Virus record (IMG/VR): IMGVR_UViG_3300036715_002805
Span: 1-34,606 of that record
Origin: a virus
Reading direction: 5' to 3' (one strand)
Length of the DNA: 34,606 nt
The translations under genes were made by a program, and so were the position numbers. The notes under the pieces were generated by a model. That model worked only from the letters and a program-made list of their open reading frames with translations, ran no database searches and was not told the DNA's origin. This document shows, in pieces, positions 7,384-24,910 of the stretch (positions are counted from its first letter, which is position 1; each line of letters starts with the position of its first letter).

Positions 7384-7815
7384 TCAGAGCCCCAGTCCGA
7401 GGAGAACCCAGACGCCGTCGGTGTCGACGTCCATCACTTTGCCCGCCCTGGAGCGGGTGCCCGACGCGTCGGTCTTTGCCACGGTCTGGTTATCAACGAG
7501 GTAGCAATCCTTGCCCACCTCGGTGACTCCAATCGCGTCCGTCGATGCGCTGTTGTTGTAGCGGAACTGTCCCGGCTCGACCCTGATCTTCAGGTCGCCG
7601 CTCGCCCCCGCTGAGTTGTCCACCGTCTCGGCGGCGCGTCCCGCGGTGATCAGCGTGGTTGCTGCGCTCGGGCCTTTTGCATAGCCAGTGGAATCGAGCA
7701 CGACAATGGTCCCCTTGAGGATAGTCGTGCTCGCCTTCATCGGCAGGCTGTGAACTTCTGGGAGCACATGTGCCCCACGCTTGGGTGTGTTTCGTTCCGT
7801 CGCTGCGTTGGACAT
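7384..7815 (-). CDS. Head decoration protein (DUF2190-like)
   Basis: 143 residues from ATG 7815, sharing one base with the protease stop. A basic N-terminus leads into a beta-rich body with KGTIVVLDSTGYAKG and RAGKVMDVDTDGVWVLLGL. This is the pattern of small capsid-stabilising proteins encoded between protease and capsid genes in many phages. No in-frame TAG; stop TGA. Its end is 7 bases from the capsid start. Function inferred from position and fold impression. Confidence 0.65.
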   Translation of the reverse strand: MSNAATERNTPKRGAHVLPEVHSLPMKASTTILKGTIVVLDSTGYAKGPSAATTLITAGRAAETVDNSAGASGDLKIRVEPGQFRYNNSASTDAIGVTEVGKDCYLVDNQTVAKTDASGTRSRAGKVMDVDTDGVWVLLGLGL

Positions 7816-10438: not shown

Positions 10439-12015
10439 AGGTCCTCCTGAACTGCCCACCTCCCGCGGAGGGCGCCGAGTAGCAGCGCCTTGCGCACCGT
10501 CTCCGCGAGCGGGCCTGGGTCGAGATCGGCGTGGAGCGAGCGGAGGTCTTCGGCGAGCTGCGTCGGGTCGCTCGCGCTGTTGATCACCGCGAGCACGGCG
10601 TCGATGTCGGGTGCGAGCGCAGCGGTACCGTGCCCCGCGTGGTCGTCGGCCAACTGGTCGACGTACGCCTGGCCTTGAACGACGCCAGATGTCTGCGGCA
10701 ACCGATCCCCAGAGGCCAGCGTGATGACGCGCGAGGCGAGGGCCTGTGAGGGCGGCGGCGGCGGTGAAGTGAGTAGCGCGGGTTGGACCGCTGTCTCTGC
10801 GCTTGGCGTCGAGGTCGGATTGGCTGGCGCCGCAGCTGGCACCTTGTCGGGATCGAGCAGCGGGATACCCCCTCGCTCGAGCAGCGCACGGCGGTCGACT
10901 TCAGGCGGAAGCGTGGCGCACGTCGCAATCGCCTGAGCTTGTGCGAGCAGCGTGTCGGCCTTCAGCTTCACATCTTCGGGCGGACTCGGATCCCAGCACG
11001 GCAGGGGCGCCGCTGCCTCCGAGCCGTGGTTCACACGTGCCCACGGGCGGATCGCGCAGAAATGCAAGCACTCGGCGATCGCGAGTCCGTACCCGCGAAG
11101 CACGCGTAGCTCGATCCCCTCGTGCGTGTCCGTAGCTGCGAGCGAGCCCCCAGAGACGTCCGTGCTCAGGTTCTGCCCGAGGAAGATCACCGAGATCGCC
11201 TTGTTGGCCGAGTCCCAGATGCCCTGGAACATCTCCCACGTGTTGGCGCTCGCCTCGATCAGCGCGACGCTGTTGCCCTCCTCTACGACCATCGAGGCCT
11301 CGCGCCCGCGTTGGTTGAGCTGGCGCGACATCTTCTTTCGCTCTGGCTCTTTGGTGCCCTTCGCGACGGTGCCAATGAGCAGGCCTTGGCCGTGGAGCTC
11401 GCTATGACGAGCAGCGTCCTCCATCGCGTAGCTCTTCATGAGCCACCAGCGCGAGATGGGTCTCCATGCGCCGAAGCTCCACGGGCGTTTCTTCCCGTAG
11501 GGCGTGAAGAGCACCCATTTGCCCTCGCCGGGAATCACATCGACGACGCCCGATGTCGTCTGGATGCGCCAGAGATCTTGGGCCCACGAGTAGTAGAGGT
11601 GGCGTGGATGCCAGACCTCGAGCGAGGGGACCAGGCGCCCCTGTCGCTCCTACCAGACGAGCTCGCCGACCCCCACACCAAGCAGCAAGCCCCACGACAA
11701 CAGATGCCCCAGATCGGCGGCCGGGAACATTGCTTGCCAGTCTTGCCGCGCCTCGAGGTCTCGCACTGGTGTCTTTCGACCTTCGCCCGGTTGAAATGTC
11801 AGCGGCAAACCGAACAATGTCTGGCTGATCTTGGTGAGCACGCCCGAGACATGGTCATCGCCGAGCATCGCCTCACACAGATCGGCGGCACGCATCAGCG
11901 TGCCATTGTCTGCGGCGTGCAGCGCGTCAGTAATCTACGACGGTTCCCACTCGTCGAAGACACGAACCGGAGACTCTCGGTGGTGGCCAAAAGCTGGGTC
12001 AATCGTCGTCGTCAT
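10435..12015 (-). CDS. Portal protein, Mu gp29 (DUF935), with two in-frame TAGs
   Basis: 526 residues from ATG 12015, close to the length of Mu gp29 (about 510). TAG occurs at 11935-11937 (codon 27, EWEPS-(TAG)-ITDALHAADNG) and 11650-11652 (codon 122, GELVW-(TAG)-ERQGRLVPSLEV). Both junctions fit the DUF935 pattern of an N-terminal helix ending in ...AADxG, then a helix-rich region and W.....P.LE..HPRH. Further downstream are FTPYGKKRPWSFG and NSVALIEA. The portal forms the head vertex ring through which DNA passes. The gene overlaps the terminase end by 17 bases. The stop is TGA. Confidence 0.9.
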
Positions 12016-13375
12016 CGTCCCTCTGTGTATCACGATCGTCCACGTCATGCTCTGTCGTGAACAGGTTTCCAGACATGCGATCGCCGAGCAGCGCCGTGGC
12101 TGCCCACACATACGCGTCGAGCCTGTCTGGTGATTTCTGACCAGGCTCCCACGTGCAGAGCTGGTCCTCGAGTTGGCTGAATGTGCCGACGTGGTGGATG
12201 CGCCCCTGCTCGGCCTGCGTCGAGATCGGCTCGGCTCGGGTCGCTTTCCCGCGCGCTGCGTGCACCTCTTCGGTGGGCACGTTCGCTCGATACGCCTGGA
12301 TGTTGGCCGCGACCAGGTCGCCACCGTTGTTGACCTCGGCGACAATTGCGTTCGCTTCCCAACGGTCGTAGGCCCCGACGGCGATGCGAGCCCAGTCTGT
12401 CGGGGCGTACTTGCCAGAGAGATCTTCGAGCAGGTACGCGTGAAAGTCATCACCGAGACCCATGACGACGATCCCCGTCTCGGCACTCTCTTCGCTCACC
12501 GTGACAGCCGGGTCGATCGCCACGACGATCCGCCGCATTGACGGGATCTCTTTGCGATGCACACGTCGCGCATCGATCATGGTCGCGCGCTTCCAGAGAG
12601 CGCCCGGGTTGTCGTCGAGCAGCTCGGCGTAGAGCTCTTGTCGACCGAGGCGTGACCCCTCGTATTTCTTCAAGATCTCGGTGAGAAACGCCTGCGCAAG
12701 GTTGCCCGCGTTCTCATACGTCGAACCTCGCGTGAGCGCGGTCGACGGTGATGTCATGAGCTCACGAATGAGCGGGGTGTTGCGCGGTGTCGTGGTGACC
12801 ACCGCTTGCGGATTGTCGCCGAGACGCAAACCCATCATCGCCTGATCCCACGCCTCGGGATACCGCCACGCCGCGACCTCGTCAGCGAGCAGCTTGTGGT
12901 GTTGTTTGCCTCGAAGTCGATCGGGCTCGTCGGCGGTAAACAGGCGAGACTCGACACCGTTTGGCCAGACCAGACGGCGCTTCGAGGATTGATAGACCGG
13001 CCGGAACCACTTGGGCGCCGTCGCCAGGATTCCAGACTCGCCCTCGACCAGGATGTCACGCACGTCGTCGGCGGTCGCGCCGATGAGCGAGACGTATTTA
13101 CTCTTGCCGGTCTCGGCCTCTTCGCGCACCCATTCGACACCGCAGCGAGTCTTGCCAAACCCTCGACCAGCAAGCACCAGCCAGATGCGCCAGTTGCCGG
13201 GGGGCTTGAGTTGCTTCGGCCGTGCCCAGAACTTCCACGAGTACTCGAGCGCTTCCTACTCAGCCTGGGTCGGCGCCAGATCCCGGAGAACTGCCGCTCG
13301 CTCCGGAGGCGGCAAGGAGCCGATCCAAGCGGCTACTGATTCGAGCTGCTGCCTCTGCCTGCTCGGCTGCACCAT
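11999..13375 (-). CDS. Large terminase subunit, with one in-frame TAG
   Basis: 458 residues from ATG 13375 (MVQPSRQRQQLESVAAWIGS) with TAG at 13256-13258 (codon 40). The sequence after it, EALEYSWKFWARPKQLKPPG, then WLVLAGRGFGKTR (Walker A) is a classic terminase N-terminus. There is no usable start between the TAG and Walker A. DEV in LADEVAAWRYPEA is the Walker B region, and RIVVAIDPAVT begins the RNase H-like nuclease domain with its first Asp. The protein packages DNA into the prohead through the portal. The start lies inside the small terminase gene (116-base overlap). The acidic C-terminus ends in six Asp before TGA. Confidence 0.9.
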
Positions 13376-13793
13376 CGGGCTCACCCGCACCCGAGTACTT
13401 CAGCGTGGTGTCGACCACCTTGCGAAGTTGCTCGGTGATATCGAGATACTGTGCCAGCGCCTTCGGTTCGTCGGCTCGCAATGATAGACGGTCCGATGAC
13501 AGTGCAGCGTTGAAGGTCAGCGTCGCGAGTCTGCTCAGACGACGGCGCTGGCGATCGAGCGAGTCTAGCGCCGGGGGAATGGTCCGCTTGATGGTCTCGC
13601 GAACGATCTCCTTTGCAGCAGCCTGGAAGGGCTCGCGCTTGCGTTTGACACGAGCCCCGAGAGACGCGGCGGAGATTTCGATCTTGTGCGTCTCGAGCAA
13701 CCACTTGCAGACCTACCTGAGCGAGTGTCCCTCAGCGCATCGAACAATGCATTCTCGCTCGATTTCTGGGGTCAGTTTTGCGGGGTGAGCCAT
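13260..13793 (-). CDS. Small terminase, Mu gp27-like (DUF3486), with one in-frame TAG
   Basis: 177 residues from ATG 13793 (MAHPAKLTPEIERECIVRCA), with TAG at 13713-13715 (codon 27) in the middle of a helix-turn-helix: EGHSLR-(TAG)-VCKWLLETHKIEIS. Reading it as Gln gives a complete HTH followed by ISAASLGARVKRKREPF, the arrangement of gp27. The rest is helical and ends in a Gly/Ser tail. Small terminases recognise the packaging site and load the large subunit. It is the first gene of the late block, 125 bases after the tRNA gene. The stop is TGA. Confidence 0.8.
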
Positions 13794-13794
13794 T

Positions 13795-13827
13795 GTCAGC
13801 CTTGTACCTTCGTTGCGTCAGGCTTGT
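13795..13827 (-). promoter_or_regulatory. Two 11-bp direct repeats upstream of the late block
   Basis: On the minus strand ACAAGCCTGAC (13827-13817) and ACAAGGCTGAC (13805-13795) differ at one position and start exactly 22 bases apart, i.e. two helical turns on one DNA face. They end right at the small terminase start codon. An overlapping AGGCTT-GT-AAGCCT inverted repeat lies at 13820-13833. This is a plausible binding site for a late regulator; I see no clear -10 or -35 box here. Confidence 0.4.
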
Positions 13828-13918
13828 AAGCCTACCATGCGTGCGGGGTCATCGCCCGCAAGACAGCTACGGCGCCCGTGCCCCGACGCGACCTGGTGTT
13901 CTGGCTCGATAGTGCATC

Positions 13919-13993
13919 TGGTTCTGGGGGCCGGACTCGAACCGGCGTTGCATCGAATTAGAGTCGAACGTCCTGCCTTTAGACGACCCCAGA
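13919..13993 (-). tRNA. Amber-decoding (suppressor) tRNA, anticodon CUA, Gln-like
   Basis: Complete 75-nt cloverleaf. The acceptor stem is TCTGGGG/CCCCAGA (7 pairs) with discriminator A and an encoded CCA. The D arm is GTCT-AAAGGCA-GGAC. The anticodon arm is TTCGA-CTCTAAT-TCGAT, with a T-T mismatch at the top pair and anticodon CTA (13959-13961). The variable loop is GCAAC, and the T arm is GCCGG-TTCGAGT-CCGGC. The D arm and the GACTCTAATTC loop resemble bacterial tRNA-Gln(CUG) with one changed anticodon base. U35 and the U1-A72 pair favoured by GlnRS are kept, while G73 and the G2-C71/G3-C70 pairs of the E. coli determinant set are not, so the charged amino acid is probably but not certainly Gln. 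It is the last gene before the TAG-containing late block. Confidence 0.92.
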
Positions 13994-14018
13994 GTAGGAC
14001 CTATCTACGGGCTCCTAC
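13994..14018 (-). promoter_or_regulatory. Hairpin abutting the tRNA 5' end
   Basis: GTAGGA (14018-14013 on the minus strand) and TCCTAC (13999-13994) form a 6-bp stem with a 13-base loop that ends exactly at the first base of the tRNA. It lies between the TAG stop of the HTH gene (14037-14039) and the tRNA. It probably helps 5' processing or shields the leader of a tRNA cut from a long early mRNA. Confidence 0.4.
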
Positions 14019-14036
14019 CCTTCGCGCCGCGCGCAT

Positions 14037-14285
14037 CTATTCCGCGTTCGACACGCAGGCCGCGTTCTCGATCTGCTCGGTCTGCCACCGACGCTCGAGT
14101 TCGTCCCATTCGTCTGGATGACTGTCGCGCAAGGCATACAGATCGACCCGCCATCGACCGAGGATCTTTTTGCCTGGGAGAGAGCCCCGACGCAGGTGCT
14201 CACGAATCACGTCGTCGCTCACGTCGAGCAGTTCGGCCACAAGCGCCGGCTCGAGATACCGCGCGGCGTGGAGCGGACGGTTCAC
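14037..14285 (-). CDS. Small helix-turn-helix DNA-binding protein, ends in TAG
   Basis: 82 residues from GTG 14285 (GTGA overlap with the upstream gene). The segment ARYLEPALVAELLDVSDDVI, then HLRRGSLPGKKILGRWRVDL is a MerR/excisionase-type HTH_17 domain, including the W-R-V-D wing. It is the last protein gene before the tRNA and its stop is TAG (14037-14039). Read-through would carry translation through another TAG and into the tRNA gene sequence, so TAG must still act as a stop here. It may regulate the late switch or act in excision; neither is shown. Confidence 0.7.
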   Translation of the reverse strand: MNRPLHAARYLEPALVAELLDVSDDVIREHLRRGSLPGKKILGRWRVDLYALRDSHPDEWDELERRWQTEQIENAACVSNAE

Positions 14286-14569
14286 GCGGCATCCTTGGGC
14301 TGTGGTCGTCGAAGCTCTTTGAGCGCCAGAATCCTTTGCTCGACGCGCTTTTCCTCATGCCAGCACGCGGCCCACATGAAGTAGGCGAGGAACGACATCA
14401 GCGAGACTTCTTCGAGGTCTTCGCGCGTCACCAGCTTCCCGCTGTCGTGGGCCGACCTTGCTGCCGATGACCAAGCGCCTGCCCTGAATACAAGAAACCT
14501 GACTTCGGAGAGCCAGCACTCCTCACGGGCGATCTGTAGCTCCAGGCGGAGCCGTTCGAGTTCGCTCAT
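14282..14569 (-). CDS. Hypothetical early protein
   Basis: 95 residues from ATG 14569 (MSELERLRLELQIAREECWL). The N-terminus is helical and probably coiled. A hydrophobic aromatic stretch (MSFLAYFMWAACWHEEKRV) around residues 60-78 could associate with membrane or pack internally. Start and stop overlap both neighbours (ATGA and GTGA), so it is translated with the early operon. No family recognised. Confidence 0.6.
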   Translation of the reverse strand: MSELERLRLELQIAREECWLSEVRFLVFRAGAWSSAARSAHDSGKLVTREDLEEVSLMSFLAYFMWAACWHEEKRVEQRILALKELRRPQPKDAA

Positions 14570-14718
14570 CGATGCCCCTCCCTCTCCCGCCACGCGAGCA
14601 CCAAATCCCTCGCTACGGTGACCAGCACCTTTGGCAGCGTCACGAGCCAGAGCGCGAGGTAGCGAGGGCCCGAGAGCTGGGGGTCGGGGCGAGGTGGGGT
14701 GTGGTGGTGGTGGGTCAT
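14566..14718 (-). CDS. Small protein with a hydrophobic helix
   Basis: 50 residues from ATG 14718 (MTHHHHTPPRPDPQLSGPRY), followed by LALWLVTLPKVLVTVARDLV, one likely membrane or amphipathic helix, and a charged end. It overlaps both neighbours by ATGA. The natural His run may bind metal. Function unknown. Confidence 0.5.
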   Translation of the reverse strand: MTHHHHTPPRPDPQLSGPRYLALWLVTLPKVLVTVARDLVLAWREREGHR

Positions 14719-15134
14719 GGGGCTTCTCGCTGGTAGATGTCGACTCTCACGCCGCAGGTCTTCGACCGCTCTTGCAGCACCTGCCACGAGACGCGCGGGT
14801 CTCGATCGTCGATACCAAGCCAATCGGCACAACCATCGCGGCATGCCTTGAGGGAGCTCGCGAGGTTGTCGTCGTCAAGCGTGCCGGGGGCGAGACGGGT
14901 GAGGACGACGTGCAGGGGGCCGAGAGGAGGCTTGCCTGCCTTGGCTCGGAGGGAGAGCGCAACCGCTCCCCTTTGCCCCTGAGCGCGACCAGCCTTCATG
15001 AACCAAGTGTCCCTCTGGTTCGCCTCGGACACCGTCCTGACTGGCACGGTTACGGAGGCCAGGAGGGGTCGAGAAGGAAGCGGCTGGCCGCAGTGAGGGC
15101 AGGGCAAGGGGGAGATGGCAGCGGAGGCGTTCAT
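14715..15134 (-). CDS. RusA-like Holliday junction resolvase (probable)
   Basis: 139 residues from ATG 15134. A CPHCGQPLPSRP stretch near the N-terminus could be half of a metal site. The core LTRLAPGTLDDDNLASSLKA, then GCADWLGIDDRDPRVSW follows the RusA pattern: a D-x-D-N motif starting a helix that ends in an Asp-containing loop, which together bind magnesium. Phage RusA proteins cut branched DNA during replication or recombination. It lies in the early operon with replication genes. Family assignment rests on the motif only. Confidence 0.6.
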   Translation of the reverse strand: MNASAAISPLPCPHCGQPLPSRPLLASVTVPVRTVSEANQRDTWFMKAGRAQGQRGAVALSLRAKAGKPPLGPLHVVLTRLAPGTLDDDNLASSLKACRDGCADWLGIDDRDPRVSWQVLQERSKTCGVRVDIYQREAP

Positions 15135-15380
15135 GGTGCCTCCTGTTGCCAGTGCGTAGAAACACCTAGGCCGTGTGACGTAGGGTAAGAATCAGATGGT
15201 GAAAAGGCGCAGGTTGGTAGAAGAGAAGTAAGAGAAAGAAAGAAGAAGAGAGGGGAATTATCTTCTTTTTTATATACATCCACCACACCCACCACGGGCA
15301 CACCTTTCCCGTATCTGCTGTCGCAACTGTCACACGATGTCTCTTGTCGATCCTGCGACGCTTTTAGAGCCGTTTTATGC
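15135..15380 (-). other. Intergenic stretch with polypyrimidine tract and TGTCGCA motifs
   Basis: About 245 bases between the DUF3987 gene and the RusA-like gene. On the minus strand it holds an AT-rich TATATAAAAAAGAAGATAAT (near 15260-15280), then a 45-base pyrimidine-only-like tract (15215-15256). Near its start it holds TGTCGCA/TGTGACA elements (15319-15325 and nearby). An 86-codon frame spans it (15131-15391, ATG overlapping the DUF3987 stop). Its composition is poor and I do not call it a gene with confidence. Confidence 0.35.
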
Positions 15381-16991
15381 TTACGTCGCATCGTTTTTAC
15401 CCTCTGTCGCAGTGTCGCTCGTGGTTTTCAGGCGAATCACTTTGTAGCCCGCCGCGCGGGAACCTCCGACACGCGACACTTTTTCGATGTGTCCACGATC
15501 CAGCAGGATTCCCAGGGCGCTATCGATGCGGCTCGACTTTCGGAGCGGAGAATGTCGCTGCACGTCGCGGCGAGTGAATGAGAGGTACTTGCCCCGTCGC
15601 ATCCAGTCCTCGACGATCTTGGCATCCTTCTCGGCCGGATCGGCCTCCATGGTCGCGAAGGCAATGTGCGCCTGAAGAAGCAGGTAGTGACCAAGCTCCA
15701 TCGCGCGATCCAGATCGGACACATCGAGCTCGACCGACTCCGGAGCGAGCCCTTCGGAGACGCAGCGCAGGACGTGGAACAGTCCAGCGATCCGGACGAT
15801 GGCGCCCCTGAGCTTGCTCGCCCAGTCCTGGATCATGTGCAGGTTTCCGCCCTGCCCCATCCGGTGATCGATGCCCACACAGACGCGCTTCATGAGCGCC
15901 CAGGCGGGAGCGGAAAAGCGAATCGATGCGGGCTTGCCACCCGCCTTCAGGGGCTCGAGATCGGTGGGCGCTGGCCAGCTCTGGGGCCTGGCATCAATGA
16001 GCATCGTGACGAGGTGCTTGTATTGGTCGCGCACCTGCCAATCGATCGGAGGCCCGTCGAAGGTCTTCGAGCCGATCCGTGACTGGGGCTGCGAGAACAG
16101 GAAGCGGGCGACCATGCCCTGACCTCGAAGCTCTGGCTTGCTCCCGAGCAGGCGAAACATCTCGGGCTGAATCGCCAGCGCCATCGTCAGGAGCGGGTTC
16201 GTCAGTACGACGTGCTTTTCGAGATCGCGCCGATCGACCGTGTAGGCCCCGCCGTCGTGGGCCTTCAAGAAGACACTATTGTTCGGGGTCTTCGAATACA
16301 GACCACAGATGAGACTGAATACGGTCCCCTCGTCGGAGGCCACCGCGAGGCGCTCGCCCTGTTGCGCAAGGAGTTGGGCCACGGTCTCTTGGGTGGCGTC
16401 GTCGACGAACAGTCGAGGTCGTGGGGGAACCGGAACCTTGGGCTCTCCGCGCTTCTTCAGGAGGTTGAGCGCCTCGGTCTTCTCGGTGAGCTTTCGCCAG
16501 GACTCGACGAGCTTCATCTCGTGGGCGCGGAGGGGCGAGAACATCTCTTTGAAGCACGCGCTCTTCTGCTCGCCTGGCTCCATCGCCACGGCCAGGTAGA
16601 GGTTCAGTGGTTCGCGCCAGTCCTGCTTGGGCTGCACAGTCCACTTGCGTTGGACGGCGGTCGAAAGAACGCCGAGGGCGAGCATCCCAGGAAGGTCGAC
16701 GGGGATCTCGTGAGAGTCGGCGAGCGCCTCGACGAACTCTCGGATGCCATCGGGGAGTACTTCGGTCGGGAAGGGTTTCTTCTCGAACGAGTCGAAGGGG
16801 ATCGGGTTCTCCCGAACGGTCCCCTCTTCGTCCTCGACTACCTCGCCATTCGCTTCGGCCTGAACCGCTCGAGCGTGCTCAGCCTCTCGAGCTTGTTCCT
16901 CCTCGGCGATGCGAAGCACCTCCTTGGGGTCAAGGGGGCGAGCCTGCTTGGCCGGACGACGGCGCGGGGTGACGTCGCTGGTCACGTCCAT
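15381..16991 (-). CDS. DUF3987 protein, probable replication primase/helicase-type factor
   Basis: 536 residues from ATG 16991. The N-terminus is basic then acidic and coiled (EEEQAREAEHARAVQAEANG). From residue 75 it follows the DUF3987 layout: FPTEVLPDGIREFVEALADS, VDLPGMLALGVLSTAVQRKW, NLYLAVAMEPGEQKSACFKE, then LAVASDEGTVFSLICGLYS and PLLTMALAIQPEMF. DUF3987 proteins are common in phage replication modules, and the E-P-G-x-x-K-S phosphate-loop-like motif (EPGEQKSA) suggests a degenerate ATPase. The C-terminus is a winged helix (RRDVQRHSPLRKSSRIDSAL). The stop is TAA, the only one seen in the window. Confidence 0.8.
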   Translation of the reverse strand: MDVTSDVTPRRRPAKQARPLDPKEVLRIAEEEQAREAEHARAVQAEANGEVVEDEEGTVRENPIPFDSFEKKPFPTEVLPDGIREFVEALADSHEIPVDLPGMLALGVLSTAVQRKWTVQPKQDWREPLNLYLAVAMEPGEQKSACFKEMFSPLRAHEMKLVESWRKLTEKTEALNLLKKRGEPKVPVPPRPRLFVDDATQETVAQLLAQQGERLAVASDEGTVFSLICGLYSKTPNNSVFLKAHDGGAYTVDRRDLEKHVVLTNPLLTMALAIQPEMFRLLGSKPELRGQGMVARFLFSQPQSRIGSKTFDGPPIDWQVRDQYKHLVTMLIDARPQSWPAPTDLEPLKAGGKPASIRFSAPAWALMKRVCVGIDHRMGQGGNLHMIQDWASKLRGAIVRIAGLFHVLRCVSEGLAPESVELDVSDLDRAMELGHYLLLQAHIAFATMEADPAEKDAKIVEDWMRRGKYLSFTRRDVQRHSPLRKSSRIDSALGILLDRGHIEKVSRVGGSRAAGYKVIRLKTTSDTATEGKNDAT

Positions 16992-17020
16992 CACGAGACC
17001 ACCTCTGTGCATTGCACGAG

Positions 17021-17262
17021 AAACCGCTGCGACACTGCGACAAAGCCTCGAAAACGAGAATCACAAGGAAAAACACGAATCCGATGTGTCGCGTCGAGAT
17101 GGCTCGACAATCGCGTGACAGTCGCAAGTGACGGGTCACCCATTGCAAGCTCCGTAAAACCGCTGCGACACTGCGACAAAGCCTCGAAAACGAGAATCAC
17201 AAGGAAAAACACGAATCCGATGTGTCGCGTCGAGATGGCTCGACAATCGCGTGACAGTCGCA
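17021..17262. repeat. 106-bp perfect direct repeat (two copies, 136-bp period)
   Basis: 17021-17126 and 17157-17262 are identical over 106 bases, separated by 30 bases, in the gap between the DnaB-N gene and the DUF3987 gene. Each copy holds two TGCGACA heptamers (for example 17028-17034 and 17036-17042), a CTCG-AAAA-CGAG hairpin, TGTGTCGCGTC, and a GTCGAG-ATGG-CTCGAC hairpin. TGTCGCA recurs at 15319-15325 and 15405-15411 around the other end of the DUF3987 gene. This looks like an iteron-type origin or a binding region for the adjacent replication proteins. Because the period is not a multiple of three, it is not a coding repeat. Confidence 0.85.
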
Positions 17263-17847
17263 TCACGAGTTCTTTCGGCCGAGATCTGCGTTGAGGTTGT
17301 CCAGCATCCGGCGAAGACGCGGAGCGGCACCAAGCTCGAGCCCGCGAGCGGCAGCGAACGAGGTGTCGACCTCGAGGAAACGAACGTGCTCAAAGAACCT
17401 GCGCCAGGCAGAGATCGATCGGATGCGAAGCGCTTGCTCCGCGACCGACGGATAGAGCTGGACGGGCCACTCTGCATCGAGTCGATCGAGCCAGACAAGA
17501 ATCGTGTCTGGATGGCGACCCGACGCCTTGGCCATGGTCGAGATCTTGGTTTCGCGAGAGAAGACCTTGCCGCCACGGATGGCGGACGCCTCGAGCTCGA
17601 ACAGCATGCCGCAGCGCTTGTCGACGAAGTGTTCTCCGCCGAGACCTTCGATGTCAGCGGCCACGCCGAACCCAGCGCGAAGCGTTGACAGAAGCGTGCG
17701 TTCCGCTGCGAAGTCGGCGAGCTCTGGGCGACCGAAGGCGGGGCTTGCCGATGCCTGCGCCTGATTCTGGTCCATGCTCTGCTCGCGAATATCTTCCATC
17801 GCCATATCGGCGATCGGAGGGCACGGCTTTCGGTTCGTGGCGCTCAC
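17263..17847 (-). CDS. DnaB N-terminal-domain protein
   Basis: 194 residues from GTG 17847 (GTGA overlap with the exonuclease-helicase gene). Residues of about 45-130 (ERTLLSTLRAGFGVAADIEG, then EHFVDKRCGMLFELEASAIR, ILVWLDRLDAEWP) match the helical N-terminal domain of DnaB-type replicative helicases, including the ...A.LG.. start and the IF.A...L...G pattern. The RecA-like helicase domain is absent. Stand-alone DnaB-N proteins in phages may adapt or load a helicase or primase; here the partner could be the DUF3987 protein. Earlier arginine-rich codons in the frame are not coding. Confidence 0.65.
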   Translation of the reverse strand: MSATNRKPCPPIADMAMEDIREQSMDQNQAQASASPAFGRPELADFAAERTLLSTLRAGFGVAADIEGLGGEHFVDKRCGMLFELEASAIRGGKVFSRETKISTMAKASGRHPDTILVWLDRLDAEWPVQLYPSVAEQALRIRSISAWRRFFEHVRFLEVDTSFAAARGLELGAAPRLRRMLDNLNADLGRKNS

Positions 17848-20534
17848 GATAGGCTCCTTCCAAACAGCGAGGACGTCTTGCCGGCGTTCGGATCTCGCAC
17901 GAGGAACAGCTCTCGAGCGGCTCGCGTGATGCCGACGTACCAGAGGTTTTCTTCTTCTTCGGTCTGTGCTGCCGAGGGGGACGGCTGCCCCTTGCGGGGG
18001 CGAATGTCCGTCGTGGGCGCACCGCTTCGCGAGGAGGGCACGCGATAGGTCCATGCCAGAACCCAGACGCGATCGGCCTCGAGCCCCTTGGCCTTGTGGG
18101 TGCTCATCAGACGGATTTTTGAGGTGTCGCCGTTCTCGTCGGTGGATGCCTGAACGAGCAGACGGACGCGCTCGAGCGCATCGTCGAGCGAGGAGGCGGC
18201 ACCGATCACCGCCTGAACGCACTGGCGTTCATCCTCGAGCTCGCCGACCGGGTCACCGCGCTCTTCGGCCATCTTGATTCGAAACTCGTACCGAGCGTTG
18301 ACGCGCTTGCCCAGGTCGAGCAGCGAGTCGGACTTCGGAGCGAGATCGCCGATCGAGCTCAGGCTCGATGAGACATCGCGCCCGACGAGCGTGACGGGCA
18401 ATCCCTTGGCCAGAAGGCGAAGGCACACGCGCACGAGCGGATTGTTCGAGCGAGACACGATGATGTCGCCGGGCGCCGCCTGGTCGTACATGTCGTCGGT
18501 CTCGAGCTCTTCGATCTTGCCCGCGTGGGCACCGGGAGCCGCTTCGAAGTCGCGAACGATCCGCTTGGCAAGGTTGACGATCGCAGTGCCGCATCGACGC
18601 GTGACGGTGAGCGGCAGCACCTGCGCGTTGAGTCGTCGAACGAGCTGCGAGAACGCGGCCGAGTGAGCGCCTCGCCACTGGTAGATCGCCTGACGTGGAT
18701 CGCCAACGACCACGACGCGAACGCCCTCGCCAGCGAGGCGGCACACGATCTCGATCTGAAGCTCGTTCAGATCTTGCGCCTCGTCGACGAGCACGAGCGG
18801 CCAGCATGGGCGAAAGAGGTTGGCGTGAAACGCACGCCAGACCTGCTCAGAAAACGACAGGCGCGCGGTGTCGAGCCAGGCCCGACGGATGATCTCGATC
18901 GCCATCGAGTAGAACGCGCCCAAGGTCTTCCATGCCTGCTCGAGCGTCTCCTCGTCGAAGAACCTTCCCTTGCCTGGCACCTCATCGCGAACGACGGGAA
19001 TCAGCAGCGGAGGAAGCGAACGAGGCGGCAGGTGAACGCTCTCGAACGCCTTCTTGACGACGCCCACGACCACGAACACGCGGGCACGGGTCCAGAACGC
19101 CTTCGCTTCGCCTTCGAGCTCGGCGACGATCTCTTCGCAGATACGGAACTCTTTCCGCTGATCGACGGTGTTCGCGCCGTACTTCTCGGACATGAGTTGC
19201 TTGCCGAGAGCGTTGAGCGTGCGGACCTCGGTCCACGAAGGCGCTCGGCTTCGAAGCTCGCTGGCGATCTGGGCGTTGAACGCGAGGAACAGCGCACCGT
19301 CGACGCGCGCATATCCGTCGGAGAGCGCCCGCACGAGCGTCGTCGTCTTACCCGTCCCGGCCCTCGCTTCGAGCGCGATGTTCCCCTGCCCATCTCGAAG
19401 CAGATCGAAGAACGCGCGCTGTTGATCAGAGGGCAAGAACGCGCTGGCGCTCTGGCTCGTCTCCGACGTGCTTGACTCGTTTGAAGAAGAAGTTTTCGCC
19501 GGCTCGGGTGCGCTCAATGCCGACGCGACACTCTCCGCTGAGACCGACGCGACCGCATCGACACTCGGTTTGGCTTCGGTCCCACCAGACGTAGCAACCG
19601 GTGCAGAGGTAGGCGTAGAGGCTGCCCGTGGCTCGCATGTCGTGTGCCTCGCGAAAGCGTGAGAGAGCATCTGGTGGAGCTTCACGCCGCTGTAGCCGTG
19701 CACGAGTTCGGGGACGTTGCAGCGTGAGCAGGTGAAGATCTGGGCACCCGTCGGGGTGACGCGCAGGCCCAGCGACAGGGGCATCAACACATCGACGAGC
19801 GTCGAGGCGTCGGGCTCGAGCCGACGGGTGAGGACGGGCGCAGACTCGGGAGCGCGCTCGATCTCAACCTTCGCCGGCACCTCCTGGTCGGGGTCGTAGT
19901 CGACTTCGAACTCGTCAATCTCCCCGTCGGTGCGCAGCTGTGCAGGCACGACCGCCGTGGCTCGTGGCGCCGCTGGTTCGACGGGAACGCCCTCGACCTG
20001 TCCCGCGGCGATCAGGATGCGAGCGCATGCGCGGGCATCAGAGAGCGCCTCGTGGTGGTTGAGCGGGATCCCCAGGTGTTGCGAGACGATATTTAGCTTG
20101 TGACTCTGTAGGTTCGGCCACACGCGGCGCGAGATCTTCAGCGTGCACTCCCACGACAAGCGCGGGAGCGTGATGCGGAAGTGGTTCGCGCAAGCCTCGA
20201 GGACGCTCTTGTCGAACGTCGCGTTGTGGGCGACGACGAACGCCACACCGCTAAAAATCGAGGCGAGATCGTTCCAGACGCCGAGGAACGATTTGGCACC
20301 GACAACGTGGCGCGCCGTGATGCCGTGCACGTCGGTAAACTTCCATGCGCCGATGTCGGAAGGAGGCTTGATGAGCGCGACTTCTTCGCGAACGATCTTG
20401 CCCTGTTCGACGCGCACGACCGCGACCTGACAAGCACTGTGGCGCTTCTCGGTGGCGGTCTCGAAGTCGAGCGCAACCCACGGGCGATCGAGTGCCGGCA
20501 GAAAGCCGATCGGAAGAGAGGCGGCCTGGCTCAC
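17844..20534 (-). CDS. DnaQ-like exonuclease fused to UvrD-type helicase
   Basis: 896 residues from GTG 20534. Residues 18-190 form a DEDDh 3'-5' exonuclease: ALDFETA (D-x-E), VVAHNATFDKSVL, and HEALSDARACARI (H....D). Residues of about 245-290 include CSRCNVPELVHGYSG with a later H-x-x-x-H-x-x-C, a putative zinc knuckle. Residues of about 375-890 form an SF1 helicase: EARAGTGKTTTLVRAL (Walker A), LVDEAQDLNELQ (Walker B), VVVGDPRQAIYQWRGA, STHKAKGLEADRVWVL, WYVGITRAARELFLV. Such a fusion could unwind and trim DNA ends during recombination-dependent replication. The SQSASAFLPSDQQRAFFDLL segment joins the two halves. The stop is TGA. Confidence 0.9.
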   Translation of the reverse strand: MSQAASLPIGFLPALDRPWVALDFETATEKRHSACQVAVVRVEQGKIVREEVALIKPPSDIGAWKFTDVHGITARHVVGAKSFLGVWNDLASIFSGVAFVVAHNATFDKSVLEACANHFRITLPRLSWECTLKISRRVWPNLQSHKLNIVSQHLGIPLNHHEALSDARACARILIAAGQVEGVPVEPAAPRATAVVPAQLRTDGEIDEFEVDYDPDQEVPAKVEIERAPESAPVLTRRLEPDASTLVDVLMPLSLGLRVTPTGAQIFTCSRCNVPELVHGYSGVKLHQMLSHAFARHTTCEPRAASTPTSAPVATSGGTEAKPSVDAVASVSAESVASALSAPEPAKTSSSNESSTSETSQSASAFLPSDQQRAFFDLLRDGQGNIALEARAGTGKTTTLVRALSDGYARVDGALFLAFNAQIASELRSRAPSWTEVRTLNALGKQLMSEKYGANTVDQRKEFRICEEIVAELEGEAKAFWTRARVFVVVGVVKKAFESVHLPPRSLPPLLIPVVRDEVPGKGRFFDEETLEQAWKTLGAFYSMAIEIIRRAWLDTARLSFSEQVWRAFHANLFRPCWPLVLVDEAQDLNELQIEIVCRLAGEGVRVVVVGDPRQAIYQWRGAHSAAFSQLVRRLNAQVLPLTVTRRCGTAIVNLAKRIVRDFEAAPGAHAGKIEELETDDMYDQAAPGDIIVSRSNNPLVRVCLRLLAKGLPVTLVGRDVSSSLSSIGDLAPKSDSLLDLGKRVNARYEFRIKMAEERGDPVGELEDERQCVQAVIGAASSLDDALERVRLLVQASTDENGDTSKIRLMSTHKAKGLEADRVWVLAWTYRVPSSRSGAPTTDIRPRKGQPSPSAAQTEEEENLWYVGITRAARELFLVRDPNAGKTSSLFGRSLS

Positions 20535-20729
20535 TCAGCGAGCCCTCTTGAATCGGGTCGGGTCGCTCGGTGCTGGCTTGAACCCGCCGAGATCAACAGC
20601 CTCGTGCTGGAGCTGCCCCGGCTCGCAACCGAGCGCACGAACGGCAAGCGCACGACCCGCGAACCAGGTGCGGGTGCGGGTGCGGTGAATACGCCCGTCG
20701 GGGGCGCGGAAGATGAATCGAACTTTCAC
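20535..20729 (-). CDS. Hypothetical 64-residue protein
   Basis: GTG 20729 to TGA 20535, directly abutting the exonuclease-helicase start and overlapping the upstream HTH gene (GTGA). It is a small basic protein, MKVRFIFRAPDGRIHRTRTR, probably beta-stranded. No family recognised; its place suggests a role in early DNA metabolism. Confidence 0.55.
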   Translation of the reverse strand: MKVRFIFRAPDGRIHRTRTRTWFAGRALAVRALGCEPGQLQHEAVDLGGFKPAPSDPTRFKRAR

Positions 20730-21226
20730 TTTGACCTCGCAGCTTTGGCGGCCCTGCCCACGGCGTGAGCAGCGCGGATGACAGCTCGTGCGGCGACCTC
20801 GCGATCGTCGCGTCGTGCGGCGTCCAGCACCTCGGCAGCGGCCACCGAGAGCGACACCGCCTCATCGAGGAGCGTCGAAACGGTCTCCTCGTCGTCAAGT
20901 CCCCAGAGGGTGTTCAGGCGATCGCGAAACGCCCGCCGAGCCGGCTTCGGAAGTTGCCCGACGCGTTCGATCGACAGGGGTTTCTCGCCATCGAGAATCG
21001 CGGCGCAACTCTGCGGGGTAACGCCCCAGAGTCGAGCGACCGCGGCGCGTGACAGACCGAGATCGCGAAGCACCTCGCCAAGAATCTGGGCGATGTGTCG
21101 ACGCGCGATCGCGTCTACGTCGATAGGATATTTCCCTACATTTTGGGCTGCGAAATTCGTATCCGTCGCAGCCCGACTTTGTGAATCGTCGTGGTGAGGA
21201 TGGAGCTTATGAGCAATCAGCGCCAT
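20726..21226 (-). CDS. Putative HTH early regulator
   Basis: 166 residues from ATG 21226, with GGGAGGG eight bases upstream. Residues of about 40-85 (RRHIAQILGEVLRDLGLSRA, then VARLWGVTPQSCAAILDGEK) form an XRE/HigA-like helix-turn-helix. The C-terminal half is a long Ala-rich helix. It may control the early operon or bind the origin; not determinable. No TAG. Confidence 0.6.
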   Translation of the reverse strand: MALIAHKLHPHHDDSQSRAATDTNFAAQNVGKYPIDVDAIARRHIAQILGEVLRDLGLSRAAVARLWGVTPQSCAAILDGEKPLSIERVGQLPKPARRAFRDRLNTLWGLDDEETVSTLLDEAVSLSVAAAEVLDAARRDDREVAARAVIRAAHAVGRAAKAARSK

Positions 21227-21229
21227 CTC

Positions 21230-21463
21230 TCAGCCCTCCCCGCCCACGTAATTGTCCGCCTGAACGAGCTGCGAATCGCTCTCGACGTGGTGCGCTACTC
21301 GCGTCGCTGGACGGCAAACGACAATGGTGTCGCGCCTCGTCCAATCGCCGTTGCGATCCGCCTGGTCGCATGACCGTTCGCCCCACGAGAGGATCGCGTG
21401 CTCGATCCATGGCCAGCAGAGCCACGCGACGAGCGTCAGGTGGGCGAGCACGCGTGGCGTCAC
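21230..21463 (-). CDS. Small protein with N-terminal hydrophobic segment
   Basis: 77 residues from GTG 21463 (GTGA overlap). VLAHLTLVAWLCWPWIEHAI near the start is hydrophobic enough for one membrane helix. The rest is polar. Overlapping gene borders support coding on this strand over a competing plus-strand frame. Function unknown. Confidence 0.5.
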   Translation of the reverse strand: MTPRVLAHLTLVAWLCWPWIEHAILSWGERSCDQADRNGDWTRRDTIVVCRPATRVAHHVESDSQLVQADNYVGGEG

Positions 21464-21822
21464 GAGACTGCCCTCGCTGCCAAAACCTCTCGCCTAGAAC
21501 GATGAGGCGTCAGCCCTCCTCGTTGTTTGTTGACGAGCGGACAGCCCGCAGCAGTGTGCCGCTCAATGCACTCGCGTTCGGCCAGGCTGGCACCGTCGAG
21601 ATCCGTATCGATCTCCTCGACGAGCGAGATGATGGGCAGCACGCCGGCCGCGCGCATATCGCTCCACCACGCGGCGCGAGCGCCGTTCTTACCCTGCGAA
21701 GCCCGAGAACGAGCGTCGCAACGGTGCCCGGCAAGCCTCGCAACAAGACTCTGGTTCGTGACTCCGACGTATCGGATCGCGTTATCCCGCGGGTCGCTCA
21801 GCGTGTAGAGGCGAAAGATCAC
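21460..21822 (-). CDS. GIY-YIG nuclease-domain protein
   Basis: 120 residues from GTG 21822 (overlap with the Cro-like stop). FRLYTLSDPRDNAIRYVGVT holds the Y-T-L ... Y-V-G pair of the GIY-YIG fold, followed by SLVARLAGHRCDA (the conserved R and H helix). EEIDTDLDGASLAERECIER supplies the catalytic-type Glu, and LVNKQRGG the final Asn. GIY-YIG proteins cut DNA in homing, repair or restriction. As a single domain of this size it may be a phage-borne nuclease acting on host or competing DNA. Confidence 0.75.
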   Translation of the reverse strand: MIFRLYTLSDPRDNAIRYVGVTNQSLVARLAGHRCDARSRASQGKNGARAAWWSDMRAAGVLPIISLVEEIDTDLDGASLAERECIERHTAAGCPLVNKQRGGLTPHRSRREVLAARAVS

Positions 21823-22079
21823 GCCGCGCCCGCTTCGGCTTCGACCTCTTCGCTCGGTCCGATTGAAGCGATCGGATCACCCGTACGCCAGGATCGAATC
21901 GGCACTTCGCCGAAACTGATCTCCTCGATGCGGATGGCTCCGTTGATGTTGGGGTGCTTCTTGCCCTTTTCCCAGTCGCAGACCGTCGATTGCCGGACAC
22001 GGAGCGCGTCGGCAACCTCTTGCTGCGAATACCCGCGCCGCTTGCGCCAGGCAGCGAGCAAACTCGATCCGTGTTCCAT
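21819..22079 (-). CDS. Cro-like XRE repressor, leaderless
   Basis: 86 residues from ATG 22079 (MEHGSSLLAAWRKRRGYSQQ). SQQEVADALRVRQSTVCDWE is an XRE-type helix-turn-helix, with KGKKHPNI completing helix 4. The ATG is seven bases after the promoter -10 box, so transcription should begin at or next to the A of the start codon. It is the first gene of the leftward early operon, as cro is in lambda, and is divergent from the repressor gene. Confidence 0.8.
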   Translation of the reverse strand: MEHGSSLLAAWRKRRGYSQQEVADALRVRQSTVCDWEKGKKHPNINGAIRIEEISFGEVPIRSWRTGDPIASIGPSEEVEAEAGAA

Positions 22080-22085
22080 CTTGTC

Positions 22086-22114
22086 CCTATAGCAATAACG
22101 TAATCCTCCGTCAA
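22086..22114 (-). promoter_or_regulatory. Leftward early promoter (PR analogue)
   Basis: On the minus strand TTGACG (22114-22109), a 17-base spacer, then TATAGG (22091-22086). The spacer ends in TTACGTTATTGC, an operator copy that touches the -10 box. Expected start near 22079. Drives the Cro-like gene and probably everything down to the tRNA. Confidence 0.75.
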
Positions 22115-22162: not shown

Positions 22163-22636
22163 ATGGCCGCCAGCAAAAAGCTCCCCGACCAGCAGCAGCA
22201 GCGGGCACGCGAGTTCGTCCAACGGATCGTCGACGAGCAGTTCGGGAAAAACGTGCTCGACGCCTCCCGTAAGATAGGCGTCTCGCAGTCGTGGCTTTAT
22301 GAGTTCTTGCACGGCAAGCGCGGCGCTGGATTTAAGTCGCTCGCAACAATTGCTGCGTTCGCCAGCACGACCACGGACGTCGTTCTCGGACTGACGCCGG
22401 CTCCACCGGCCAGCGAACGTCGCCCCCTGGGCAACGGCGCCATCGGCGATCACCCGATGTGGACGGAAACGATCGAAATCACTCGTCGGCGCTACGGCAA
22501 ACGTCTCACGGAGGAGATGATCGAGAAGCTCGAGCGCGCCTCGCTCTCCTTCACCCCCGAGCGTTTGACCCCTGAATTCTTGTACACCGTTGCGGAAGCC
22601 ATCGAAGAATCGGAGCCCTTCGAAGATCCGAGCTAG
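22163..22636 (+). CDS. Phage repressor (CI-type, XRE family), ends in TAG
   Basis: 157 residues from ATG 22163 (MAASKKLPDQQQQRAREFVQ). Residues of about 27-75 (FGKNVLDASRKIGVSQSWLY, then EFLHGKRGAGFKSLATIAAF) form a helix-turn-helix of the XRE family. The C-terminal part lacks a LexA-type protease domain and may mediate dimerisation. It is divergent from the Cro-like gene and next to an ImmA-like peptidase, so it is most likely the lysogenic repressor. The stop is TAG (22634-22636). If TAG is read through, the frame stays open for 97 codons to TGA 22925-22927, including one more TAG. Confidence 0.75.
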   Translation: MAASKKLPDQQQQRAREFVQRIVDEQFGKNVLDASRKIGVSQSWLYEFLHGKRGAGFKSLATIAAFASTTTDVVLGLTPAPPASERRPLGNGAIGDHPMWTETIEITRRRYGKRLTEEMIEKLERASLSFTPERLTPEFLYTVAEAIEESEPFEDPS

Positions 22637-22644
22637 GACATATC

Positions 22645-23130
22645 GTGGCCGTCGCGTAGTTGTACGCGAGCCATCGAAGATGCATCCATTCCGTTGTGCG
22701 TGTCCCTCGGCATATCCTTCGGATGCTGTTCTCGGGCCAGTTTGAAGCGGCTGGCCTCGGAAGACCGACGCTCTCAATAGAGGAGTGTCGCGAGCTCCGC
22801 CGCCAGGCGATGCAGCTACACGCCCTCGACGCGACTGCGCCACCGTGGACGCTCGCCCGGGCTGAAGGATACGACCTTCGCGCGTCGAGACAGCGGCGAG
22901 TGTCTGCGTGCATCGACAACACACTGATCTTGCCGCCGCTGTTTCAGCTCGACGAACTGTGGTTGACCGCTGCCCACGAGCGCGCCCACGGCATTCTCGG
23001 GCGGCTGTGTGAGCCGGGTACGACCACCGAGGCGGACGCGTGGGTGCTGACGTACGTCCTTACCGAGCCCGCCTTGGCGGAGTGTCCGGCGTGGTGGGTC
23101 GAGACGGTGACCGACGCTGAGATCCTCTAG
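22645..23130 (+). CDS. ImmA/IrrE-type zinc metallopeptidase, possibly with an early in-frame TAG
   Basis: ELWLTAAHERAHGILGRL contains the H-E-x-x-H zinc motif, followed by TTEADAWVLTYVLTEPALAE with the third ligand Glu, as in ImmA-type peptidases that cleave phage repressors. The best ribosome site (AGGA, six bases) precedes GTG 22645. That frame reads M-A-V-A-(TAG)-L-Y-A-S, with TAG at 22657-22659 (codon 5). Downstream starts GTG 22696 and ATG 22723 avoid the TAG but have no visible Shine-Dalgarno. The stop is TAG 23128-23130; suppression there would add 16 residues to TGA 23179-23181. Confidence 0.65.
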
Positions 23131-23177: not shown

Positions 23178-23206
23178 TTGACCTTTATTTACGTTATCGC
23201 AATAAT
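23178..23206 (+). promoter_or_regulatory. Rightward early promoter (PL analogue) with embedded operator
   Basis: TTGACC (23178-23183), a 17-base spacer, then AATAAT (23201-23206). The spacer ends in TTACGTTATCGC, the same position relative to the -10 box as in the leftward promoter. Expected start near 23213, just before ATG 23217. The promoter follows the peptidase gene and starts the long rightward operon. Confidence 0.75.
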
Positions 23207-23467: not shown

Positions 23468-23725
23468 ATGTCTCGATATGTCGTCGTCGGTTCCTACGCC
23501 GAGTCCGACGTGCAGCTCTGCCTGCACTACACAGATGATTTGCTCGACGCTCGCAGGTACGTCACGGGCGAGCGCCGCCGTAAATCAGGCTGCGACCTGC
23601 TCGCGGTGATCGACACCACCACGGGCCAGCCCGCCGCCATGCCGCATGCGAAGCGGCTCGTGATCGTCAACGCTCATATGCAGGGGCACACGGTTCGCCG
23701 TGTCTCCGTCGCGAGGGCGTCATGA
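23468..23725 (+). CDS. Hypothetical early protein
   Basis: 85 residues from ATG 23468 (MSRYVVVGSYAESDVQLCLH), with a mixed alpha/beta pattern and a Y-V-V-V-G start. It follows a 65-base gap that holds a perfect palindrome ACCCTATAGGGT (23452-23463) just before the start. It overlaps the pentapeptide gene by ATGA. No family recognised. Confidence 0.55.
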   Translation: MSRYVVVGSYAESDVQLCLHYTDDLLDARRYVTGERRRKSGCDLLAVIDTTTGQPAAMPHAKRLVIVNAHMQGHTVRRVSVARAS

Positions 23726-24516
23726 GCGAGCTCGTCACCATTCCAGGTGAGCAAATACTGACGATTACCCGAGGGCAGCTGAAGGGCCTCGATGCGTGTC
23801 GAGAGGGCATGCGGCTCTTCAACGTGTTCGTCGGAGGGCGCAATAAAAACGTTCTTCGGATCATCTGGAGCCCATTGGCCCAGGTGTGGTTCGCGAAAAA
23901 CCACAGCGGTTTTGCTGCATGGCTGTACGACTGCGGTGTCACGCCGCGGTTCTCGTTGTCATCGGCGGACCTCAGCTGGGCGAACCTCAGCTCGGCGAAC
24001 CTCCGCTCGGCGGACCTCAGCTCGGCGAACCTCAGCTCGGCGAACCTCCGCTCGGCGGACCTCCGCTCGGCGGACCTCCGCTCGGCGGACCTCAGCTCGG
24101 CGAACCTCAGCTCGGCGAACCTCCGCTCGGCGGACCTCAGCTCGGCGAACCTCCGCTCGGCGAACCTCAGCTCGGCGGACCTCAGCTGGGCGAACCTCCG
24201 CTGGGCGAACCTCAGCTCGGCGGACCTCAGCTCGGCGGACCTCCGCTGGGCGAACCTCAGCTGGGCGGACCTCAGCTCGGCGAACCTCCGCTCGGCGGAC
24301 CTCAGCTCGGCGGACCTCAGCTCGGCGAACCTCCGCTGGGCGAACCTCAGCTGGGCGGACCTCCGCTGGGCCCTTTTGCCCGATGCCATCCCAGAGGGAG
24401 CACAGCTCGCGGGGGCTTGGCGAGCCTCTACAGACGCGCCGATTCTGGGGTGGCACCTGCGCAAAACGAACGAGAGCGACACGTACGGCCAGCTCGAAAA
24501 GGACGGTGCACCATGA
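23722..24516 (+). CDS. Pentapeptide-repeat protein with a conserved N-terminal domain
   Basis: 264 residues. Residues 1-80 form a globular domain (ITRGQLKGLDACREGMRLFN, SPLAQVWFAKNHSGFAAWLY, DCGVTPRFSL). A run of about 27 pentapeptides of the L-[SR]-[SW]-A-[DN] type follows, predicted to fold into a right-handed quadrilateral beta-helix. The end is WRASTDAPILGWHLRKTN. Such helices often mimic DNA, for example gyrase-binding MfpA/Qnr, but target and function are unknown here. A paralogue with the same three-part layout lies at 30912-31295. All three forward frames stay open because the repeat unit is 15 bases. Confidence 0.85.
   Translation: MSELVTIPGEQILTITRGQLKGLDACREGMRLFNVFVGGRNKNVLRIIWSPLAQVWFAKNHSGFAAWLYDCGVTPRFSLSSADLSWANLSSANLRSADLSSANLSSANLRSADLRSADLRSADLSSANLSSANLRSADLSSANLRSANLSSADLSWANLRWANLSSADLSSADLRWANLSWADLSSANLRSADLSSADLSSANLRWANLSWADLRWALLPDAIPEGAQLAGAWRASTDAPILGWHLRKTNESDTYGQLEKDGAP
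23971..24360 (+). repeat. 26 tandem 15-bp units (minisatellite within the pentapeptide gene)
   Basis: Twenty-six complete units of the form CTC-[AC]GC-T[CG]G-GCG-[AG]AC, differing only at three positions (Ser/Arg, Ser/Trp, Asn/Asp choices). Partial units flank both ends. The near identity at DNA level points to recent expansion by slippage or recombination. Confidence 0.95.
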
Positions 24517-24716
24517 TCGCCGGCACAGTCGCAGGTCGCCCCGTCCTCTGGCTCTGGAGAGAGGATCTCCCCAAGCGCCCGCCTGGTTTTTTCCGAGCCG
24601 CACAGTTCGAGACCGCGGTCGGGAAGCGTCCGGTTCGGATGATCTCGAGGGTGAGCCCAGCCCTTCGAGCCGCCGCCCCCGATGGCGCTGTCGCCGTGGT
24701 CGAGGTGTCGGAATGA
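24513..24716 (+). CDS. Hypothetical early protein
   Basis: 67 residues from ATG 24513 (MIAGTVAGRPVLWLWREDLP), overlapping the pentapeptide gene stop by ATGA. A short beta-like start is followed by a basic middle (KRPVRMISRVSPALRAAAPD). No family recognised. Confidence 0.5.
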   Translation: MIAGTVAGRPVLWLWREDLPKRPPGFFRAAQFETAVGKRPVRMISRVSPALRAAAPDGAVAVVEVSE

Positions 24717-24910
24717 ACGCCGAAGACCTCTCCGCGCGCCTCGCGCGCCTCTCGACGGATGCCCTTGGGATTCTTGTCGATCTGAAGCGCAGCGGCCTCG
24801 AATGGCGAGCGGGCCAGATCTCGATGATCATCTCGCTCGTCGGCGTCGTTCGGAACTCGATCGACGACGACATTCGTCACGCAAAGAACCGCGCCGAGGC
24901 ATCGCTGTGA
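24713..24910 (+). CDS. Hypothetical early protein
   Basis: 65 residues from ATG 24713 (MNAEDLSARLARLSTDALGI), largely helical, with an ATGA overlap upstream and a GTGA overlap downstream. No family recognised. Confidence 0.5.
   Translation: MNAEDLSARLARLSTDALGILVDLKRSGLEWRAGQISMIISLVGVVRNSIDDDIRHAKNRAEASL

Follow-up and report, generated by a model that had tools for sequence, protein, structure and literature searches.

In-frame amber codons close to late-gene starts of a temperate phage, and a candidate gating role for its suppressor tRNA

Results

Late genes and an amber-suppressor tRNA

We analysed a linear viral contig of 34,606 bp and 63% GC (IMG/VR virus record IMGVR_UViG_3300036715_002805, positions 1 to 34,606; this whole stretch is called the window), in which a transfer RNA (tRNA) with the amber anticodon CUA lies between a block of early genes and the late genes. 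Ten in-frame TAG codons were found across 8 of the window's 16 late genes. The tRNA and these eight genes are as follows.

13919-13993, minus strand: tRNA-CUA, amber suppressor (ARAGORN, anticodon CTA; Rfam RF00005, 53 bits)
13260-13793, minus strand: probable terminase small subunit (TerS), TAG at codon 27 (13715); assigned from position and a helix-turn-helix (HTH)-like sequence, no family match
11999-13375, minus strand: terminase large subunit (TerL), TAG at codon 40 (13258); relatives with 53-56% identity align across the TAG
10435-12015, minus strand: portal, TAG at codons 27 and 122 (11937, 11652); family match, relatives align across the TAG
7815-9050, minus strand: Mu-gp32-like head protease, TAG at codons 7 and 46 (9032, 8915); family match
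6430-7377, minus strand: major head protein (Mu gpT-like), TAG at codon 2 (7374); family match
4008-4274, minus strand: small late gene, TAG at codon 4; homologues in loci L114 and L113, TAG outside the aligned part
2575-4011, minus strand: tail sheath, TAG at codon 24 (3942); family match, relatives align across the TAG
2114-2563, minus strand: tail tube-like, TAG at codon 51; family match

The tRNA has the canonical cloverleaf fold and its CCA is encoded; it carries a Glu/Gln-type D arm, a U1-A72 pair and A73, and its body is nearest to tRNA-Gln, followed by tRNA-Glu, in a comparison of 252 distinct phage-locus tRNAs. ARAGORN labels it tRNA-Pyl because the anticodon is CTA; the canonical body, which is not the PylT fold, speaks against a pyrrolysine system, and no PylS-like gene was recognised among the window genes scanned. 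The spacing given in an earlier sequence-only reading of this DNA agrees with the coordinates: the tRNA follows the stop of the last early gene (14037) by 43 bp, and TerS starts (13793) 125 bp beyond the tRNA. We found no promoter or operator match adjoining the tRNA in a scan that covered sigma-70-type sites in this 63% GC genome, and the sole terminator-like site near it is at chance level; neither a terminator nor a promoter was detected between the tRNA and the late genes. The interval before TerS also holds a near-identical 12-nt pair (GTCAGSCTTGTA, 13795-13806 and 13817-13828), a possible regulator site.

Six genes with family matches are restored once TAG is translated as sense (TerL, portal, head protease, major head protein, sheath and tail tube), as are TerS and the small gene at 4008, which have no such match. 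The TAGs of TerL, portal, protease (codon 46), major head protein, sheath and tube lie inside conserved parts of the proteins, and homology thus bears out the claim that the late genes need the tRNA. In the head protease, only codon 46 falls in the part common to most relatives; the N-terminal alignment of the major head protein takes in codon 2 in JBD26. The alternative that a TAG lies upstream of the true start, with initiation further downstream, is ruled out by homology for TerL, portal codon 122, protease codon 46, the major head protein, sheath and tube, and is less securely rejected for protease codon 7, TerS and the small gene. Conserved phage genes carry in-frame TAG codons in the same genome as a cognate suppressor tRNA, two features of phage stop-codon recoding of the code-15-like kind, in which TAG is sense.

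The residue inserted at UAG is likely to be glutamine, judging from the tRNA body and from aligned relatives: both relatives of the tail tube have Gln at codon 51, one of four relatives of the portal has Gln at codon 122, and in the clade of another phage locus described below (L041) Gln stands at several positions where L041 itself has TAG. The remaining TAG sites of the window have no consensus residue in relatives.

Placement and 3' context of the TAG codons

The TAGs are concentrated near gene starts (codons 27, 40, 27, 122, 7, 46, 2, 4, 24 and 51), a feature that the sequence-only reading had not seen. The first 60 codons hold 9 of the 10 TAGs and 21% of late codons (p = 6.5e-6; Kolmogorov-Smirnov (KS) p = 3e-5). 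The early, lysogeny and integration genes contain no internal TAG, with none in about 5,800 non-late codons (Fisher p = 2.7e-4). The number of TAGs per gene looks Poisson-like.

The nucleotides after the TAGs are also biased. When the window is taken together with G001, a phage with unrelated terminase and portal genes, a purine follows the TAG at 20 of 20 sites (p = 1.4e-4) and AT follows at 13 of 20, against 7% expected (p = 4e-11). A purine 3' of UAG favours suppression. Where ATY follows the TAG in the window, its relatives frequently carry Val or Leu, which suggests that the TAG and its 3' codon were shaped jointly.

The early block and the immunity region

All genes from the Cro-like regulator (22079) down to the HTH gene (14037) run leftward with mostly overlapping borders, as the sequence-only reading had described. 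Of the 12 borders examined, ten have a gap of 0 or less, so that the genes overlap or abut, and the remaining two gaps measure 3 bp and 250 bp (17013-17262).

14037-22079, minus strand: block of early leftward genes, no internal TAG
21819-22079, minus strand: Cro-like HTH gene
17844-20534, minus strand: exonuclease/UvrD-like helicase
15381-17012, minus strand: DUF3987 helicase-like gene
14715-15134, minus strand: RusA-like gene
14037-14285, minus strand: HTH_17/excisionase-like gene, TAG stop, last early gene before the tRNA
22086-22114, minus strand: putative early leftward promoter PL, TTGACG (22114-22109), 17-nt spacer, TATAGG (22091-22086)
22092-22103: operator TTACGTTATTGC within the PL spacer
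22163-22636, plus strand: HTH repressor-like gene between the two operators, TAG stop
22900-23130, plus strand: its neighbour, TAG stop, with an HExxH-like motif, ImmA-like by eye
23178-23206, plus strand: putative early rightward promoter PR, TTGACC, 17-nt spacer, AATAAT
23189-23200: operator TTACGTTATCGC within the PR spacer
33384-34604, plus strand: tyrosine integrase (PF00589, E = 3.5e-19), open at the contig end

The protein of 17844-20534 is a single 896-aa chain that joins an RNase T-type exonuclease domain to a UvrD-like helicase. The repressor-like gene has no Pfam match, and its assignment accordingly rests on position and a sequence that looks HTH-like by eye. Since an integrase, this repressor-like gene and a Cro-like gene are all encoded, the phage is temperate. 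The plus-strand gene at 23722-24516 probably encodes a pentapeptide-repeat protein; a Pfam HC2 match at 23792-24910, in an overlapping frame of that gene, is probably spurious and was not used.

PL stands just upstream of the Cro-like gene. It was absent from the output of the consensus scan because its -10 hexamer does not end in T. Two 16-nt repeats form an inverted pair at 22088-22103 and 23189-23204, each in the 17-bp spacer of promoter-like hexamers. The motif TTACGTTATYGC has exact copies at the PL and PR sites only; three further copies occur with two mismatches, two in the same immunity region and one at 29570, none of them near the tRNA. These promoters and operators are consensus matches, and promoter-like matches in the wider region occur at chance density.

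Three non-late genes, the last early gene among them, end in TAG (14037-14285, 22163-22636 and 22900-23130), a point absent from the sequence-only reading; TGA is the stop in 31 of 35 scored non-late genes. Suppression would extend the repressor-like gene by 96 codons, its neighbour by 16 and the last early gene by 72.

Relatives of the window

The order of the portal, head and tail genes matches that of Myxococcus phage Mx4, Meiothermus phage MMP7 and Thermus phage Riverbug. These phages have the same genes but no TAG at the sites aligned to those of the window, and in Riverbug RusA leads to TerL upstream of the late genes with no annotated tRNA (the three genomes were not scanned for tRNAs). 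A query with the window's TerL returned 20 IMG/VR loci of 34-57% identity, in which no tRNA was found and no TAG occupies the window's TerL site. Other IMG/VR queries for close relatives gave one distant locus (portal) or none (major head protein; near-exact tRNA pattern). Among GTDB genomes, the TerL query gave no match and the tRNA pattern gave 11, 9 of which have no tRNA according to ARAGORN.

Sparse and dense recoding in other phages

Further phages were gathered by a pattern scan for Glu/Gln-type tRNA-CUA, a second scan with another Gln-type D arm, and one portal search. In G001 and G002, whose terminase and portal are unrelated to those of the window, the tRNA immediately precedes the terminase genes, and 10 TAGs fall at codons 10-90 (KS p = 7.5e-7). 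In this pair (L099-L102), A follows the TAG at 8 of 10 sites and ATY at 7 of 10. Directly upstream of the G001/G002 tRNA, a metallopeptidase-like open reading frame (HEYVH; L027, about 51-452) likewise has a TAG close to its start, and the next codon is Ile.

A third unrelated group (L041, L043 and L044) has the tRNA upstream of TerL. Both L041 (570-7594) and L044 carry a terminase-portal-capsid module with N-terminal TAGs adjoining a tRNA-CUA; the genes of these short loci were assigned by hand. Nine of the 14 TAGs of L041 lie within the first 60 codons (KS p = 2.4e-4), and at 60-66% protein identity L041 and L044 have both kept TAG at portal codon 19 and at codon 41 of g4243. TerL contains seven TAGs in L041 and one in L044. 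More distant relatives of the group (L045-L050) have no TAG at those sites. The layout of the window thus recurs in two unrelated phage groups, and this convergent pattern of sparse N-terminal ambers is a stronger finding than the timing arrangement of the sequence-only reading.

Eight densely recoded contigs showed neither clear front-loading of TAGs nor AT bias.

G008: 89 TAG sites, KS p = 0.09
G009: 104 TAG sites, KS p = 0.26
G011: 100 TAG sites, KS p = 0.48
G012: 137 TAG sites, KS p = 0.10
G013: 54 TAG sites, KS p = 0.22
L061: 49 TAG sites, KS p = 0.10
L082: 50 TAG sites, KS p = 0.70
L083: 36 TAG sites, KS p = 0.60

Two other dense recoders are borderline (L063, KS p = 0.045; G014, KS p = 0.048). 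G003 and G010 have a tRNA-CUA and almost no recoding; in the G003/G004 pair (L103, 5862-6599 and 8077-8859), a Gly-rich, membrane-protein-like gene has a TAG at codon 25 and another gene has one at codon 47.

Discussion

A candidate gate on late translation

From the placement and context of the TAGs we propose, with a probability of about 0.58, that sparse, context-tuned N-terminal ambers hold late translation until the suppressor tRNA accumulates. Without the tRNA, translation of most gated late genes would end after 1-50 residues and would yield short peptides, not long dominant-negative fragments. Relief of repression would allow the early promoter to drive synthesis of the tRNA; the charged tRNA, probably glutaminyl, would build up and outcompete release factor 1 (RF1) at the favourable UAG-A and UAG-G contexts. 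Terminase, portal, protease, capsid and tail would then open together, with the two-UAG genes opening last, and stray late-gene transcripts that do not pass through the tRNA would stay silent. Late transcription is perhaps held as well, through polarity. In bacteria, as established for the lac operon, polarity is strongest when a nonsense codon lies close to the gene start, and Rho may therefore cut late transcription short until the tRNA is present. If the operator at PL is real, repressor control of the tRNA would run only through a promoter 8.1 kb away.

Several observations count against such a gate. Drifting TAGs could likewise come to favour N-termini through selection for cheap placement. 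TAG is found in only half of the late genes, and its Poisson-like counts do not support one gate per gene. Since the tRNA precedes the late genes on their own strand, both are made by any transcript that enters from upstream. In the L041 clade the UAG-AU context bias is missing and some TAGs are internal, and the borderline L063 and G014 make the contrast between sparse and dense recoders statistical, not absolute. The searches above also gave no close relative of the window in which conservation of its own TAG positions could be tested.

Other explanations

The main rival is that cheap placement itself, in an incipient code change: a suppressor was recently acquired and TAGs drift in where failed read-through costs least, with no regulatory role. 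Ongoing accumulation of TAG after suppressor gain is described for crAss-like phages (PMC7886860), the number of TAGs per gene in the window looks random, and late genes would in any case be expressed when the tRNA is present. We nevertheless consider this explanation unlikely, though one to be reckoned with, given that L041 and L044 have kept TAG positions at 60-66% identity, that two unrelated phages have a strong UAG-purine/UAG-AU context, and that dense recoders, presumably past this stage, bear no clear N-terminal residue of it. The sequence-only reading offered a timer instead, in which about 8 kb of early transcription delays the tRNA and hence the virion proteins. It had placed a leftward early promoter about 8 kb upstream, and a putative operator-bearing one (TTGACG-17-TATAGG) does lie about 8.1 kb away; a promoter immediately upstream of the tRNA, which it had named as evidence to the contrary, has no match in the sigma-70-type scan. 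Its description of the tRNA as the last product of the early operon holds for position, the tRNA being last in the block, whereas the end of an early transcript and the start of a late one are indistinguishable from sequence. The delay by distance is not supported as such: the late genes start 125 bp further on, on the same strand and with no terminator or promoter found between, so that distance delays tRNA and late mRNA alike. The 250-bp gap in the early block could moreover hold another promoter, and we regard the timer as improbable. Polymerase would reach the late genes seconds after the tRNA, which leaves tRNA maturation, charging and build-up in competition with RF1 as the sources of any delay, and polarity at the N-terminal ambers perhaps adds to the separation.

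Two further ideas look weaker still. The suppressor might act mainly on UAG stops of the host or of the phage's own genes, such as the repressor-like gene with its 96 additional codons, and so disable defence or lock the lytic choice. The TAG stops of that gene, of the gene next to it and of the last early gene, set against the prevalence of TGA in the other non-late genes, fit this idea, and an anti-host function has been proposed (PMC7886860, PMC12386605); three stops are a small number, picked out in hindsight, and the late-gene TAGs and their N-terminal place would be left unexplained, which makes it very improbable. That the host itself reads UAG as sense, through pyrrolysine or a reassigned code, and that the TAGs are ordinary codons, is suggested by the ARAGORN label; the canonical tRNA body and the non-late genes, which still stop at TAG and never use it internally, make this the hardest of all to credit. 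Gating of late translation by the tRNA is thus our best reading, with cheap placement of drifting TAGs its main rival.

Comparison with known systems

Recoding of stop codons in phage lytic genes, with proposed regulation by suppressor tRNAs, was reported by Borges et al. (2022), as relayed in PMC9523058, PMC10607447 and PMC13059738. The window resembles that system in combining a suppressor tRNA and TAG in structural genes with the standard code elsewhere, and differs, as far as those relayed accounts extend, in having 10 TAGs in the whole contig, placed N-terminally in a tuned context. The crAss-like phages also have TAG mostly in late genes, where it is read as Gln (PMC7886860; proteomics in PMC9523058), and suppressor tRNAs; many of them are densely recoded, unlike the window, and the available text of both papers does not mention N-terminal placement. 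The later recoding papers, including those that relay Borges et al. (2022), likewise make no mention of N-terminal placement or 3' context in the parts available, which is weak evidence. Suppressor tRNAs associated with theta ribozymes are a proposed switch for recoded lysis and structural genes (PMC10879173). The window shares a suppressor tRNA as the proposed switch, but an Rfam scan found no ribozyme family above threshold in it, and its tRNA has an encoded 3' CCA.

Recoding was called in PMC10879173 when coding density gained 5-10%, a screening criterion and not a biological definition. Taking TAG as sense raises the predicted coding density of the window from 87.4% to 88.2%, and that of the late part by 6.8 points; at 0.8 points against the 5-10% required, the window stays below that threshold, and coding-density searches would miss it and other sparse-gate phages. 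We tentatively suggest, at somewhat less than even odds, that sparse amber gating is a distinct and repeatedly evolved regulatory class, with single 5' UAGs, a UAG-AUY/UAG-purine context that favours read-through and, immediately ahead of the late operon, one suppressor tRNA that would switch the whole virion programme, and that such small phages escape coding-density screens.

Dense recoding cannot separate regulation from drift as the basis of phage recoding. N-terminal, context-tuned and conserved UAGs point to regulation, and about 10 UAGs with one tRNA make a system small enough for reversion and testing. Suppressor-tRNA recoding of lytic genes is known already; the N-terminal gate pattern appears to be a new form of it.

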